Assembly: GCF_003060965.1 (NCBI RefSeq)
Contig: NZ_QAII01000052.1
Location: 1-53,889 of the forward strand
Length of the DNA stretch: 53,889 nucleotides
DNA from: Caulobacter sp. HMWF025
GTDB taxonomy: Bacteria; Pseudomonadota; Alphaproteobacteria; Caulobacterales; Caulobacteraceae
Direction: 5' to 3'
Positions 4,580 to 39,083 of this stretch are shown here, piece by piece. Every line of letters starts with the position of its first letter. The first letter of the stretch is position 1. The notes beneath the pieces were generated by a model, which ran no database searches, was not told the DNA's origin, and saw nothing but the letters and a program-made list of their open reading frames with translations. Both the position numbers and the translations under genes were made by a program.

Positions 4580-4707
4580 GAAACGTCCGGTCAGAAAATG
4601 AAGAGCCAGTCGGGGCGCGTGCCCCAGGCGGCGTCATGCAGCCTGATAAAGGCATATGCGTGACGTCGCAATGTACAGACTGGGCGCGCTGACTCTGGCG
4701 CAGCGAT

Positions 4708-4730
4708 CCCCGAACGCCTAGGTTCGGCCC
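4708..4730 (+). promoter_or_regulatory. Inverted repeat abutting the ispH start codon
   Basis: CCGAAC (4710-4715) and GTTCGG (4722-4727) form perfect 6-bp arms around GCCTAG, ending three bases before the ATG. No Shine-Dalgarno sequence is visible. The CTAGGTTC stretch resembles the extended -10 element of Caulobacter housekeeping promoters, which would start a leaderless or nearly leaderless message. The repeat could instead be an operator or a 5' hairpin. The repeat is seen directly; its role is inferred. Confidence 0.4.
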
Positions 4731-5690
4731 ATGAACGCTCCCGCTCCGGTCCGTCCCGCCCTCACCATCCTGCTGGCCAGCCCTCGAGGCTTCTGTGCCG
4801 GCGTGGATCGCGCCATCCAGATCGTCGAGCGCGCCATCGAAAAATTCGGTGCGCCGGTCTATGTGCGGCACGAGATCGTCCATAACCGCCATGTGGTTGA
4901 CCGGCTGAAGGCCCTGGGCGCGATCTTCATCGAGGAGCTCAGCGAAGCCCCCGACGACCGCCCCATCGTCTTTTCAGCCCACGGCGTGCCCAAGTCGGTG
5001 CCGGCCGAGGCCAAGGCCCGGCAGATGATCTATCTGGATGCCACCTGCCCGCTGGTCTCCAAGGTGCATGTCGAGGCCCAGAAGCATTTCGACGCGGGGC
5101 GCGAGATTGTGCTGATCGGCCATGAGGGCCACCCGGAGGTCGTCGGCACCATGGGCCAGCTGCCGGAGGGGTCGGTGACTCTGATCGAGGACATTGACGA
5201 TGCCCGCGTCTGGCAGCCGAAGGACGCCGCCAATGTGGCCTTCCTGACCCAGACCACCCTTTCGGTCGATGATACCGCCGAGATGGTCGATACCTTGAAG
5301 GCCCGCTTCCCCGGCATCGCCGCGCCGCATAAGGAAGACATCTGCTACGCCACGACCAACCGCCAGGACGCGGTCAAGAGCCTGGCCCGGGCTTCCGAGC
5401 TGGTGCTGGTGGTGGGTTCGCGCAACTCGTCCAACTCGGTGCGCCTGGCCGAGGTCGGCCTGAAGGCCGGGGCCCGCGACGCCCGCCTGATCGACGATGC
5501 GACCGGGCTGGACTGGTCTTGGTTTGAAGGCGTCTCCCGGGTCGGTCTGACCGCCGGGGCCTCGGCCCCCGAGGATCTGGTGCAAGGCGTCATCGACGCC
5601 ATCGCCGCGCGGTTCGACGTCACGGTCGTGGACCTCGTCGAGGCCCGTGAGACCGTGACCTTCAAGCTGCCGAGGCTGCTGACGGCCTAG
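4731..5690 (+). CDS. ispH: 4-hydroxy-3-methylbut-2-enyl diphosphate reductase
   Basis: Last enzyme of the MEP isoprenoid pathway, an iron-sulfur enzyme converting HMBPP to IPP and DMAPP in the cytoplasm. The protein has 319 residues. The three cluster-binding cysteines sit in [21 protein letters not shown] and [10 protein letters not shown]. The catalytic Glu region and the SSNS motif (RNSSNSVRL) are present. In many relatives thrB and rnhA follow directly; here a GbsR/SRPBCC pair lies between them. Transcription appears monocistronic, with a GC-rich hairpin just downstream. Confidence 0.97.
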
Positions 5691-10323: not shown

Positions 10324-10812
10324 ATGAACTTTGTCGGCTACTACCGCCTGCCGCCCGTGCGCGGGGTCTTCTTCAGTCCGGCCCAGGAGGAGCGTCTGCT
10401 GCTCCTGGGCTGTCAGGAGGTCTTCAGCGACCGGTGCCTGGCCGGCGGCGTCGTCCGCAGCGGTCTCGACCGGGCGCTGACGGCGCTCGAGCCAGGCGGG
10501 GTGCTGGCCGTGCCCAGCCTGCACGCCCTGGCGGGGGCGATGGTCGATCTGCTTGACGTGGTCCGGAGGCTGAGGGCGCTGAACCTCGATCTCGTCGTCG
10601 TACAACCGCCAATCGACACCCGCAGCGACGCCGGCTTCTTCGAGGCCTGTCAGATCCTGGCGACCTTCAACGGCGAGCGCAGTCTCGTACGCAACGCCGA
10701 GGCCACGATGATCGCCCGGGGTGCGCCCCGGGAAGAGCGCCGGGCGGTGGCGAACTCCGGCGAGACGGTCGCCGAGCCTGACCTCAGCTCTTCAGACGAT
10801 AGCCTGTCCTGA
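10324..10812 (+). CDS. Serine-recombinase-like protein lacking the catalytic serine
   Basis: A 162-residue protein that follows the resolvase catalytic-domain pattern: GYYRLPP for YxRVST, then [31 protein letters not shown], a long helix, [19 protein letters not shown] and a C-terminal [16 protein letters not shown]. The residues of gamma-delta resolvase line up by number. R8 and R45 are kept, but S10 is P10, D67 is H67, R68 is A68 and R71 is G71. Cleavage activity is therefore not expected. No DNA-binding helix-turn-helix tail is evident; the last 25 residues are acidic and Ser-rich. Its end overlaps the convergent ABC permease by 29 bases. The ATG is chosen because the fold starts there; an in-frame GTG exists at 10258. 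It may be a domesticated or structural relic. Confidence 0.7.
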
Positions 10813-11541
10813 AGATCCACCACACCGCCGTCAGACAGAGGGCCAGGAACAGGGCCGTCATGCCCAGGCTGATGCCGACTCCGACGTCGGAGACGCCGTA
10901 GAAGCTCCAGCGGAAACCGCTGACCAGATAGACCACCGGGTTGAACAGGGTGATCTTCTGCCAGATCGGCGGCAGCATGTTGATCGAATAGAAGCTGCCG
11001 CCCAGGAAGGTCAGGGGCGTGATGATCAGGGCCGGTACGATCTGCAGCTTCTGGAAGTTGTCGGCCCAGACCCCGATCACGAAGCCGAACAGGCTGAAGG
11101 ACACCGCCGTCAGGACGAGGAACAGCGCCATCACGAACGGGTGGGCGATCTCGAACGGCACGAAGATCCGCGCCGTGGCCAGGATCAGCAGGCCCAGCAG
11201 CACCGACTTGGTGGCCGCGGCTCCGACATAGCCGATCACGGTCTCGATCCACGAGACCGGCGCGCTGAGCAGCTCATAGATCGTGCCGGCCCATTTGGGC
11301 ATGTAGATGCCGAACGCGGCGTTGGAGATGCTCTCGCTCAGCAGGGACAGCATCACCAGACCCGGAATGATGAAGGCCCCGTAGCTGACGCCGTCGATGG
11401 CCTGCATGCGCGAGCCGATGGCCGAGCCGAACACGACGAAATAGAGCGAGGTCGAGATTACCGGGGCCAGGATGCTCTGGGCCAGGGTCCGGAACCAGCG
11501 GGCCAGCTCGAACCGGTAGATGGCGGAAATGGCATAGAGGT

Positions 11542-11545
<4 letters not shown>
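10784..11545 (-). CDS. ABC-2 type transporter permease
   Basis: A membrane component of 253 residues with about six transmembrane segments, beginning with a cytoplasmic amphipathic stretch ([20 protein letters not shown]). The ABC-2 signature region includes [21 protein letters not shown] and [13 protein letters not shown]. It pairs with the ATPase encoded just upstream, whose stop overlaps this start (ATGA). Together they form a probable homodimeric exporter of the DrrAB/YadGH type. Substrate unknown; drug or polysaccharide/lipid export are both possible. Confidence 0.93.
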
Positions 11546-12468
<923 letters not shown>

Positions 12469-31094: not shown

Positions 31095-32186
31095 TCAAAC
31101 GGATGTTTCGGCGTTCGTCCCTGCGCGGTACCAAGCGACGCCTGTGTCATCCACATGCCGCGAGATCCTGCCCCGACCGATCAGGCAGTTGAGATGCGAC
31201 AGGGCCTCGCCCGTGGCCATGCCCAGCAGGTCGGGTCCGATGGGCCGGGCAAACAGCGCGCCGAACGTGTCGATGACCCGCTTGGGCTCGGCCAGCTTCT
31301 CTTCCAGACGCGAAAGACCCCGCTCATGGCCGGCGATCAGGTTGTCGATCCGCGAATGCAGGCCGTGGAACGGATCATTGTGCGCCGGCAGGACCAGCAC
31401 GCTGTCGGGCACGACCGACTTGACCTTGGCCAGGGAGGTCAGCCAGTCGCTCAGGGGATCGGCTTCGGGCTCGGTCGGGAATACCGAGACATTGGATGAA
31501 ATGCGCGGCAGCACCTGGTCGCCACTGATCAGCAGGCCGAGCTCGGGGCACCACAGGCAGGCGTGGTCGGGTGAGTGGCCCTGGCCGGTAACGACCCGCC
31601 AGGTCTTGCCGCCGATGTCGAAGTCCTCGCCGTCGGACAGCCGCCGGTAGCTGTCGGGCAGGGCATAGATCGCCTTGCCGAAGCCGCCGAAGCGGGCCTT
31701 GTAGTTCTCGATGGCATCCTCGTCCCAGCCGGCGGCCGTGAAGAAGCGCACGCCGTCTTCCGGGGCCTCCCGGCCGGTGTCGGCCACCAGCATCCTGCAC
31801 TGGAAGTACTCCAGTCGCGTCATCCACAGCCGGCAATCGAACTTGCGCACGATCCAGCCGGCCAGGCCGACATGGTCGGGATGCAGGTGGGTGCAGATCA
31901 CCCGGGTGATCGGCTTGCCCTCCAGGGCACCGGCGAAGGCGGCCCGCCAGGCCTGGCTCGTTTCCTTGGTCTGGACGCCGGTATCGACGATCGCCCAGCC
32001 CTCGCCGTCGGCGATGGCCCAGACATTGATAAACTGAAGTGAGCCCCCGAGCGGCTGGCGCAGCCACAGAACACCCGGGGCAACCTCGACCGCTTCGCCG
32101 GTGCCCTGCTCCGGTACGGTTTCAAAAGGATAGATCAGCTTGGGGCGGCGGGGTTCCGGTGCCTCGTCTTCGATACCGTCTCGCAT
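31095..32186 (-). CDS. Metallo-beta-lactamase fold hydrolase
   Basis: The protein has 363 residues. The dinuclear metal motif is THLHPDHVG; a further His lies in GHSPDHACLW. The C-terminal 100 residues hold a helical domain seen in the LACTB2/hydroxyacyl-type members (LVLPAHNDPFHGL, with another metal His). Function could be thioester or phosphodiester hydrolysis. It is first in the minus-strand run and divergent from the five-repeat exported protein. Confidence 0.9.
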   Translation of the reverse strand: MRDGIEDEAPEPRRPKLIYPFETVPEQGTGEAVEVAPGVLWLRQPLGGSLQFINVWAIADGEGWAIVDTGVQTKETSQAWRAAFAGALEGKPITRVICTHLHPDHVGLAGWIVRKFDCRLWMTRLEYFQCRMLVADTGREAPEDGVRFFTAAGWDEDAIENYKARFGGFGKAIYALPDSYRRLSDGEDFDIGGKTWRVVTGQGHSPDHACLWCPELGLLISGDQVLPRISSNVSVFPTEPEADPLSDWLTSLAKVKSVVPDSVLVLPAHNDPFHGLHSRIDNLIAGHERGLSRLEEKLAEPKRVIDTFGALFARPIGPDLLGMATGEALSHLNCLIGRGRISRHVDDTGVAWYRAGTNAETSV

Positions 32187-32243
32187 GGACTGGCTCCCTT
32201 CGTTCAGGCTGTCGCCATGTTTTCGCTCATCTCGGAGGACATC

Positions 32244-32273
32244 TTGACCCCTAACGCAAGGGCGCGCTTATGT
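32244..32273 (+). promoter_or_regulatory. Candidate promoter of the five-repeat protein gene
   Basis: TTGACC (32244-32249) and TTATGT (32268-32273) are spaced by 18 bases, consistent with a housekeeping-type promoter about 35-60 bases upstream of the start. Seen by eye only; not tested. Confidence 0.35.
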
Positions 32274-32306
32274 CCGCGCGAGGAATCGACCCAGGAGATG
32301 TTTCCC

Positions 32307-33647
32307 ATGAGGCCACTCGCGATCGGCTTGGCCGCCGCCCTCGCGCTCGGCGCGCTTATCCCTGCCGCCGTCATTTCGGCGCCGAAGGAGGACAAGGCGA
32401 AGGCTGCCATTGACGCCAAGGCCCGCACGGCGGGCATGGCGGCCGCCCCGGCTTTGATGCAAAGCCTGAACGCCGGTTGCACCGTTTCTGACGCCCGCCT
32501 GATCGGCGAGGACAAGAAGACGGCGACCGGCTATTACGAGGTAGCTTGTGCCGAAGGGATGGGCTTTGCGCTCATCGCCAAGAAAGACACTCCGCCGCAG
32601 GCCTTCAGCTGCCTGGAATCGAGCCAGCCGGCTGCTGACGGCAAGCCCAGCGCCCTGGCCTGTATCCTGCCCGGCAATGCCGACCAGAAGGCCATGCTGA
32701 AGCCCTTCATGGCCAAGGCCGGAACGGCCTGTGACATCATCAACGCCCGCGCAATCGGCTCGGGGGCCAAGAATTCCTACTTCGAAGTGGCCTGCGGCAA
32801 TGCCGGCTACATCGTCCAGACCACCAACCCGGCCAACCCGGCCGCCGAGGTCGTGGCCAACAACTGTCTTCTGTACGAAGAGGGTGCCAACATCAGCTGC
32901 AAGCTGACCGACAAGGCCACCCAGCTGGCCGTCGTCGATACCCTGACCGCCGCCTCGGGCAAGAACTGCACGGTCAAGGACAAGCGCTACATTCTCAGCA
33001 CCAAGGTCGACAACTATTTCGAAGTCGCCTGCGCTGACGGCAAGGGCTACGTCTTGCAGCAAGCAGCCGCTGGCGGAGCCCTGACCCGCACCATCGACTG
33101 CGCCCAGGCCGGCTTCGTCGGCGGTGGTTGTACCCTCACCGATGCGGTTGCGGCCCAGACCGAACAGGCCGGCCTCTACACCAAGCTGGCCACCAAGGGC
33201 GGCTTTGACTGCCAGGTGGAAAAGTACGGCATGCTGCCGACCGACGACAACCGCAAGGAAGTCGTCGAGCTGAAGTGCAAGAACCGTCCGGACGGCGCCA
33301 TCGCGATCTTCTCGACGGGCCCGGCGGTGATCTATGACTGCCTGACCTCGGAGATTAACGGCTATCGCTGCAGCTTCTCCAAGTCGGACACCTCGTTCCC
33401 GCGCCTGTCGGCCGACCTGAAGGCCTATGGCAAGGGCTCGTGCGAAGTGTCGGGCGTTCGCCTGGTGGGTCGCAACGACACCGAGGGCTATGTGGAAGTC
33501 GCTTGCGCTGACGGCCTGCCGGGCTGGGTGATGAGCTATCCGGTCAACACCCCGAACCCGAAGTCGAAGGAAATCCTGTCCTGCGCTCAGGCCAAGGGGA
33601 TCGGTGGCGGTTGCAAGCTTCCGACCAACGCCTCCAAGAAGAGCTGA
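32307..33647 (+). CDS. Exported protein of five tandem four-cysteine repeats
   Basis: A 446-residue protein with a signal peptide (cleavage near residue 25) and no recognised family. Five consecutive units of about 77-84 residues each hold exactly four cysteines: 58/81/102/119, 142/163/187/198, 221/242/265/275, 302/324/345/355 and 379/400/426/436. All 20 cysteines lie in the repeats. Each unit opens with C-x-V/I and then the strand Y(Y/F)EVAC or a variant, followed by a hydrophobic strand, and closes with a paired CxxxxxxxxxC. Unit 4 is the most divergent (VVELKC). Two disulfides per unit in the periplasm are likely. The ATG at 32307 is nine bases after AGGAG. A strong terminator follows, so it is monocistronic. 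Function unknown. Confidence 0.9.
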   Translation: MRPLAIGLAAALALGALIPAAVISAPKEDKAKAAIDAKARTAGMAAAPALMQSLNAGCTVSDARLIGEDKKTATGYYEVACAEGMGFALIAKKDTPPQAFSCLESSQPAADGKPSALACILPGNADQKAMLKPFMAKAGTACDIINARAIGSGAKNSYFEVACGNAGYIVQTTNPANPAAEVVANNCLLYEEGANISCKLTDKATQLAVVDTLTAASGKNCTVKDKRYILSTKVDNYFEVACADGKGYVLQQAAAGGALTRTIDCAQAGFVGGGCTLTDAVAAQTEQAGLYTKLATKGGFDCQVEKYGMLPTDDNRKEVVELKCKNRPDGAIAIFSTGPAVIYDCLTSEINGYRCSFSKSDTSFPRLSADLKAYGKGSCEVSGVRLVGRNDTEGYVEVACADGLPGWVMSYPVNTPNPKSKEILSCAQAKGIGGGCKLPTNASKKS

Positions 33648-33671
33648 TCTGGCCTTCAGGCTGAAACAGCA

Positions 33672-33704
33672 AGCCCGCCGGGAGGGATCCCGGCGGGCTT
33701 TTTT
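33672..33704 (+). terminator. Intrinsic terminator after the five-repeat protein
   Basis: AGCCCGCCGGG and CCCGGCGGGCT form a perfect 11-bp stem around AGGGAT, followed by six T residues. This is the strongest intrinsic terminator seen in the window. Confidence 0.95.
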
Positions 33705-37850: not shown

Positions 37851-39083
37851 TCAATCCGTAGCGAGTGATGTTCTTTGGCGCTCCAGCCACATCCGCTCGG
37901 CGGGGCCGGGGTCCAGGGCCAGGGCACAATCATACGCCGCGTGGGCCTCGCCGGTCCGCCCCAGCCGCGCCAGCAGGTCGGCGCGGACCGCATGGAAGGG
38001 CGCGAACCCCGTCAGACCGGCCGGTTCGAGCCCTTCGACCTGGGCCAGGGCCGCCTGCGGCCCGGCCACCTCGGCGAGGGCGACCGCCCTGTTCAGTCGC
38101 ACCACCGCATCGTCGCGCCAGACCAGAAGGGCGTCATAGAGGGCCAGTACCGCTCCCCAGCGCGGCGGCTCGGCCAGGCACTTTCGACCGCACCAGACCG
38201 CATGGATCGCTGCATGCAGCTGGCGCGGGCCGGGCCGGCCCAGGTCGGCGGCGCGGCGCAGCAGCCGCTCGGCCTCGGCGATCAGGGGCCTGCGCCACAG
38301 GTCGGGATCCTGCTCCGACAGGGGAACCATGGCCCCGGTCTCGTCCAGCCGGGCTGGACGTCGCGCCTCGGCGTAGCGGACCAGTGACGCAAAGGCGAGG
38401 CCCTCGGGCTCGTCCGGCAAGAGGGCGACCAGCACCGCCGTCAGGTCGAGCATCTCACGGGCGAAGCTGGCATGGGCCCCCGCCCCGGCCGCATCCTCAT
38501 GGGCCTTGCCATAGGCCACTTCCAGGGTCGAGAGCACCGCCGAGACCCGCTCGCCCCAGGCCTCGGGGCCGGGGATCTCGAATGGCTCGCCGGACTGGGC
38601 GATCCTGCGCTTGGCGCGGGTCAGGCGCTGGAACATGGCCGGCTCGGCCACCAGGAAGGCGCGGGCGATCTCGCGCACGCTGAGCCCGCAGACCAGCCGC
38701 AGGGTCAGGGGCGCACGGGCCTCGACCGGCACGACCGGGTGGCAGCAGACGAAGATCAGCCGCAGCCGCTCGTCTGGGATCAGGGCCTCATCGGAGGTCA
38801 TGGCCTCCTCCACGCTCGGCGGCAGGTCGGGCGGCTCGGGTGCGTGGCGCTGCCGCACGCCGCGCCGCCGCACGGCGTCCAGGGCCGCGCGGCGGGCCGT
38901 GGCGTACAGCCAGGCGGCTGGGTCGGTCGGCGGGCGCGACGGCCAGACGGCTGCCGCGCGGGCGCAGGCCTCGGCAAAGGCCTCCTCGGCCAGATCCAGG
39001 TCGCGGAAGCTGGCCGCCAGGGCGGCGATGATCCGGCCGCTGTTTTCGCGAGCGGCCCGGTCGAGGAGGCCCGGCTCCGGCAT
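37851..39083 (-). CDS. ECF42-group RNA polymerase sigma factor with DUF6596/TPR extension
   Basis: The protein has 410 residues. Region 2 covers about 20-85 (LAEEAFAEACARAAAVWP). Region 4 covers about 110-165 (LRLVCGLSVREIARAFLVAEPAMFQRLTRAKRRI). A long C-terminal extension of about 230 residues follows with TPR-like repeats (AIHAVWCG, WGAVLALYDALLVWR, AAYDCALALDPGPAE). ECF42 sigma factors typically carry this extension and sit beside DGPF/YciI proteins, as here. They lack a classical anti-sigma factor, and the extension itself is needed for activity. Targets may include this operon. Confidence 0.93.
   Translation of the reverse strand: MPEPGLLDRAARENSGRIIAALAASFRDLDLAEEAFAEACARAAAVWPSRPPTDPAAWLYATARRAALDAVRRRGVRQRHAPEPPDLPPSVEEAMTSDEALIPDERLRLIFVCCHPVVPVEARAPLTLRLVCGLSVREIARAFLVAEPAMFQRLTRAKRRIAQSGEPFEIPGPEAWGERVSAVLSTLEVAYGKAHEDAAGAGAHASFAREMLDLTAVLVALLPDEPEGLAFASLVRYAEARRPARLDETGAMVPLSEQDPDLWRRPLIAEAERLLRRAADLGRPGPRQLHAAIHAVWCGRKCLAEPPRWGAVLALYDALLVWRDDAVVRLNRAVALAEVAGPQAALAQVEGLEPAGLTGFAPFHAVRADLLARLGRTGEAHAAYDCALALDPGPAERMWLERQRTSLATD

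Follow-up and report, generated by a model that had tools for sequence, protein, structure and literature searches.

A predicted envelope protein of five four-cysteine units in Caulobacter sp. HMWF025 represents an unnamed repeat family of the Caulobacteraceae

The locus described here raises the question of what kind of protein is built from five cysteine-rich repeats and whether it belongs to any known family. The stretch analysed, called the window below, comprises 53,889 nucleotides of contig NZ_QAII01000052.1 of Caulobacter sp. HMWF025, and its open reading frame (ORF) 32307-33647 (+) encodes a protein of 446 residues with 20 cysteines (Cys). A first-pass annotation made from the letters alone had described an exported protein of five tandem four-Cys units, perhaps a binding or inhibitor scaffold. 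Homologous units in a fixed order, invariant Cys and glutamate (Glu) residues, an export-type N-terminus (by eye) and the gene's own transcription signals are directly supported. As for function, the protein may be a periplasmic chain of five small domains acting as binding beads for envelope proteins, a reading to which most weight is given here at somewhat less than even confidence.

The Cys were found exactly at the positions claimed (58/81/102/119, 142/163/187/198, 221/242/265/275, 302/324/345/355 and 379/400/426/436), with no further Cys, and the repeat periods of 84, 79, 81 and 77 residues and C1-C2 spacings of 23, 21, 21, 22 and 21 were likewise reproduced. When the residues of the mature protein were shuffled, this regularity was matched in none of 200,000 trials. 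The tandem units are homologous and not just evenly spaced: profile-profile comparison linked all 10 of the 10 unit pairs (E 2e-5 to 2.3e-17), each unit profile being built from 53 rows (the window and 52 of the 73 loci from a genome-contig scan). Unit 4 was the weakest partner in these comparisons; as had been noted it lacks EVAC and reads VELKC (ELKC), yet the ExxC pattern is kept. Identity between the units of the window protein is 17-35%, which indicates that the duplication is old.

In the 53 five-unit sequences, the nearest relative of each unit in another sequence was the unit of the same number in 265 of 265 cases. Number and order were therefore settled before the sampled five-unit lineages diverged, and no homogenisation has occurred since. 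Among 15-residue stretches, the one beginning at residue 277, at the joint of units 3 and 4, is the best conserved. From 900 unit matches across the loci, 538 distinct sequences were obtained, and where the residue is present Cys is conserved in 536/536 (C1), 538/538 (C2), 537/537 (C3) and 522/522 (C4) of them, with Glu three residues before C2 in 538/538 and one glycine in 525/538; these figures lean upward, because the model was seeded on four-Cys/Glu units and weak matches were excluded. Every unit of the window protein has the four Cys and a Glu three residues ahead of C2, and the protein thus belongs to the unnamed Caulobacteraceae four-Cys/Glu unit family.

No named family was found in the Pfam, NCBIfam and PDB sequence searches and no profile placed the units in a well-studied family, in line with the earlier statement that the family was not recognised. 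When 53 members were run through hmmscan (E up to 1), 19 Pfam families were listed, among them DUF5061, Inhibitor_I69, MORF and LysM, each in 1-10 members; all were rejected as chance matches because of low scores and mutual inconsistency. The best E (0.0026) belonged to PF16587 (DUF5061), matched weakly in 10 of the 53 orthologs; on the window protein it spans 45 residues, scores 15.6 bits against a curated cut-off of 23.6 and is likely due to chance. The PDB sequence matches MORF2 (5YDG, E 0.91) and ribosomal S27 (E 0.25) were rejected for low scores and inconsistency; 13 NCBIfam families, each matching one of 64 units (best E 0.025), were also set aside. No description of such a protein was found in the literature by title or start of abstract, and passages of the signature-protein paper PMC2241609 gave no link to it.

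Presence of the family in Caulobacteraceae is near-universal, and it is rare outside. The unit profile matched 146 of 149 Caulobacteraceae genomes, all 22 sampled genera and 133 of 133 good genomes (completeness of 90% or more, contamination of no more than 5%), the three genomes without a match being 63, 85 and 71% complete. In the phylum sample 11 of 398 genomes matched and in the order sample 51 of 249, every one of them Caulobacteraceae. With a more diverse unit profile six of 385 genomes of the class matched, two of them outside the family (G365, E 2.3e-16; G247, E 2.4e-4), while a single-unit relative used as query matched one of 337 genomes of the class (G343, another family). Protein search gave a match in 23 of the 24 same-genus genomes besides the window's own and in none of 16 genomes from other families of the same order. 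The same-genus genome without a match (G004; 99% complete, 590 contigs) speaks against universality. The 73 loci are nearly all labelled Caulobacter, Phenylobacterium, Caulobacteraceae or Caulobacterales, with one labelled Brevundimonas and five only Alphaproteobacteria or Proteobacteria. For the window protein no phage or plasmid copy was matched by tblastn, PHROG gave a weak match only (E 0.052), and PADLOC matched no defence system. In a genome of another family (f19) there is a relative (L153:206-1267) whose first unit contains a Gly-rich insertion; its contig also carries genes that by eye look hopanoid-type (squalene-hopene cyclase-like), and transfer and misbinning are both possible.

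Across relatives the unit number ranges from one to five, five being the commonest in the Caulobacteraceae genome survey. A two-unit relative (L202) is present in the window's own genome, four-unit relatives were found at L195 and L196, and one genome of genus g298 holds three diverged five-unit paralogs (L184:860-2518 and 10396-11820; L185). Genus g11 has 3-unit proteins; in one of its genomes two such paralogs (L154:2458-3417 and 4686-5684 (-)) flank an ortholog (58% identity) of the metallo-beta-lactamase (MBL)-fold neighbour of the window gene, which indicates the same locus with a changed unit number. In another Caulobacteraceae genus, three four-Cys units are followed by a C-terminal TonB_C domain (L193:458-2086 (-); PF03544, E 1.8e-8). 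Single-unit envelope-type proteins from Caulobacteraceae (L197) and from two other alphaproteobacterial families (L213, L235) have a membrane-spanning or signal stretch (by eye) and no significant Pfam match. Together they match the unit alignment (profile probability 96.5, E 7.1e-10) and have the four Cys in register, but unlike the window protein they have one unit and no Glu before the second Cys.

Such variation in unit number, the N-terminal membrane-spanning stretch of L197 (by eye) and the TonB_C terminus of one relative would suit a structural spacer or tether, that is, a beads-on-a-string rod linking or spacing envelope layers (peptidoglycan, outer membrane) whose length is set by the number of units. 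This explanation is nevertheless doubtful, since distinct units with number and order fixed in all 53 five-unit sequences exceed the needs of a simple spacer, and inspection of the window protein by eye, with Pfam as the sole motif search, showed no lipobox, no anchor and no motif for binding peptidoglycan.

The predicted structure does contain repeated domains. A helix followed by four strands was assigned by DSSP both in unit 3 modelled singly and in all five units of the full-length model, and units 1, 3 and 4 alone end in a further short helix. Folded alone, unit 3 (residues 201-280) reached a predicted local distance difference test (pLDDT) value of 91.6 and a predicted template modelling (TM) score of 0.83. 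From the short turns, the four-stranded sheet is predicted to be antiparallel. PepSY/BLIP-like domains share this helix-plus-four-strand topology, and the modelled topology allows the suggested binding or inhibitor scaffold. PepSY proteins (BLIP-like superfamily: PepSY, BLIP, DUF2874, SmpA/OmlA; e.g. YpeB 5BOI, CopD/TseB) are among the closest known systems; from them the window protein differs in having five units, each with four invariant Cys and the ExxC Glu; the fold score lies under the level that would prove kinship, and the PepSY Pfam model was absent among the 19 families listed by hmmscan. The cystatin/monellin fold (including Affimer binders and cystatin A2) is another near system, without sequence match to the unit and differing in disulfide layout and in the tandem five-unit form.

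According to the favoured reading, a soluble, well-expressed periplasmic protein would carry five domains, each predicted as one helix and a four-stranded antiparallel sheet and probably locked by two disulfides. The modules would most likely be rigid binding beads for other envelope proteins and could, for example, inhibit or stabilise a hydrolase, protease or assembly factor of the envelope, as proposed for tandem PepSY/BLIP-like proteins. Two results of the fold search weigh against this: the scores are low, and the 50 neighbours listed include 28 kinases, 14 monellin and 3 binder/inhibitor proteins, most of them not binders. The full-length Foldseek search gave 51 matches (E at most 0.001), largely beta-propeller proteins. 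Propeller identity was rejected, as root mean square deviations of about 19-27 and TM scores of at most 0.18 in the best 50 of the 51 were read as matching of scattered strand meanders; two-, three- and four-unit relatives also argue against a closed five-bladed ring.

Two disulfides per unit, as claimed, are plausible because the Cys count is even and the genome has one DsbB homolog and eight DsbA homologs, seven of them above the cut-off. A unit with a lost Cys pair, sought for inferring the pairing, was not seen. PMC8900818 is listed as dealing with a disulfide isomerase of C. crescentus. The very high and invariant Cys content (4.8% of the mature protein) could also be taken for that of a thiol redox buffer or a metal-binding protein. 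In the unit 3 model, however, the Cys lie at or beside strand ends, as expected for staples; the mature protein (residues 26-446) has no histidine, the exported compartment is served by the DsbA/DsbB homologs, and the matches to Metallothio_Pro (E 0.31, 2/53 members) and Mms6 (E 0.025, 1/64 units) are weak. A metal or redox role is unlikely, and it is the least probable of the explanations weighed here.

An invariant Glu in every unit looks functional and, with the TonB_C fusion in one relative, could suggest a periplasmic carrier of a small molecule, lipid or cofactor held near this residue and possibly passed to TonB-dependent or other transport. In the predicted unit the Glu is on the second strand. 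Counting from the turn in the unit 3 model, E39 stands opposite R27 of strand 1, where arginine (Arg) is the majority residue (0.69), so that a cross-strand Arg-Glu ion pair is likely and would make the Glu structural. As the fold lists contain no standout carrier family and the Glu is missing from L197, L213 and L235, a carrier is improbable.

The claimed signal peptide was retained as a Sec-type, export-type N-terminus recognised by eye; residues 1-31 have pLDDT below 50 in the full-length model. Disulfide-rich repeat proteins are often extracellular, which would fit a cell-surface or secreted component for adhesion, S-layer or matrix. Genera of the Caulobacteraceae differ in stalk and S-layer, yet the units occur in all those sampled; inspection by eye revealed Sec as the only signal for secretion or sorting, and the TonB_C fusion points to the periplasm. 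A surface or secreted role is accordingly quite improbable. As to origin, it can be speculated, with little confidence, that the domain began as a single-unit alphaproteobacterial envelope protein, multiplied in the ancestor of the Caulobacteraceae and came to define this lineage as a near-essential regulator or chaperone of envelope machinery, with each module gripping a different partner.

Transcription signals and neighbours were also compared (Table 1). The claim of an own promoter stood in part: a generic sigma-70 scan was negative, but CTTGACC is unchanged in all 25 upstream regions aligned (the window and 24 of the 73 loci). In 24 of these regions TTGAC begins 60-66 bases ahead of the start; for the remaining one (L073) the reference point is a match start within the gene. 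Conservation of CCAGGAG favours the ATG at 32307 over that at 32217. The terminator is present at 33671-33700 (+) as a 13-pair stem followed by a T run, although chance alone would yield 1.6 such sites in the region. The genes on either side are on the opposite strand, so this one stands alone, as the monocistronic unit proposed. Measured against 21 ribosomal protein genes, its codon adaptation is 0.66, which places it fifth among 55 window ORFs chosen by a rule itself favouring high values.

Table 1. Features of the four-Cys unit gene and its surroundings in the window
Feature	Position	Strand	Remark
Gene, five four-Cys units	32307..33647	+	export-type N-terminus, 446 aa
Sec-type signal peptide, about residues 1-25	32307..32381	+	by eye; low-confidence model region
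Unit 1, residues 43-123	32433..32675	+	unit hidden Markov model (HMM) score 66.3
Unit 2, residues 127-202	32685..32912	+	unit HMM score 65.3
Unit 3, residues 206-279	32922..33143	+	unit HMM score 81.8
Unit 4, residues 286-358, divergent	33162..33380	+	unit HMM score 55.4
Unit 5, residues 365-440	33399..33626	+	unit HMM score 70.2
Promoter-like element TTGACC - 18 nt - TTATGT	32244..32273	+	CTTGACC conserved; second hexamer by eye
Ribosome binding site CCAGGAG	32291..32297	+	identical in 25/25 aligned upstream regions
MBL-fold hydrolase, divergent neighbour	31095..32186	-	name by inspection; locus marker

Neighbour genes, named by inspection, were counted in those of the 73 loci with at least 1.5 kb upstream (67), at least 5 kb upstream (53) or at least 4 kb downstream (57). 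The MBL-fold gene lies upstream in divergent orientation in 52/67 loci and is missing in 15/67. Further upstream genes encode enoyl-CoA hydratase (39/53) and a short-chain dehydrogenase/reductase (40/53), and downstream an acyl-CoA ligase (42/57) and a thiamine-diphosphate enzyme (37/57) recur; the nitroreductase-like gene immediately downstream in the window recurs in only 2/57. These are lipid or acid metabolism genes, and a functional tie to the exported protein is not evident. An RNA polymerase sigma-factor-like gene (by inspection) lies at 37851-39083 (-) of the window, its strand varying between relatives.

The first-pass observation holds, as does most of the way it was framed. Beyond it, sequence comparison supports an invariant Glu, units that are homologous and fixed in order, the near-universal presence and the conserved start and promoter region, as well as the variable unit number and the TonB_C and single-unit relatives. 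The type genus of the Caulobacteraceae is a model for bacterial cell biology, and the question can be approached at once, since laboratory Caulobacter allows direct deletion and tagging of the gene. A protein family whose units occur in every good Caulobacteraceae genome sampled, with invariant residues and no named domain in the libraries searched, marks a gap in what is described for this family, and the unit merits its own entry in domain libraries.
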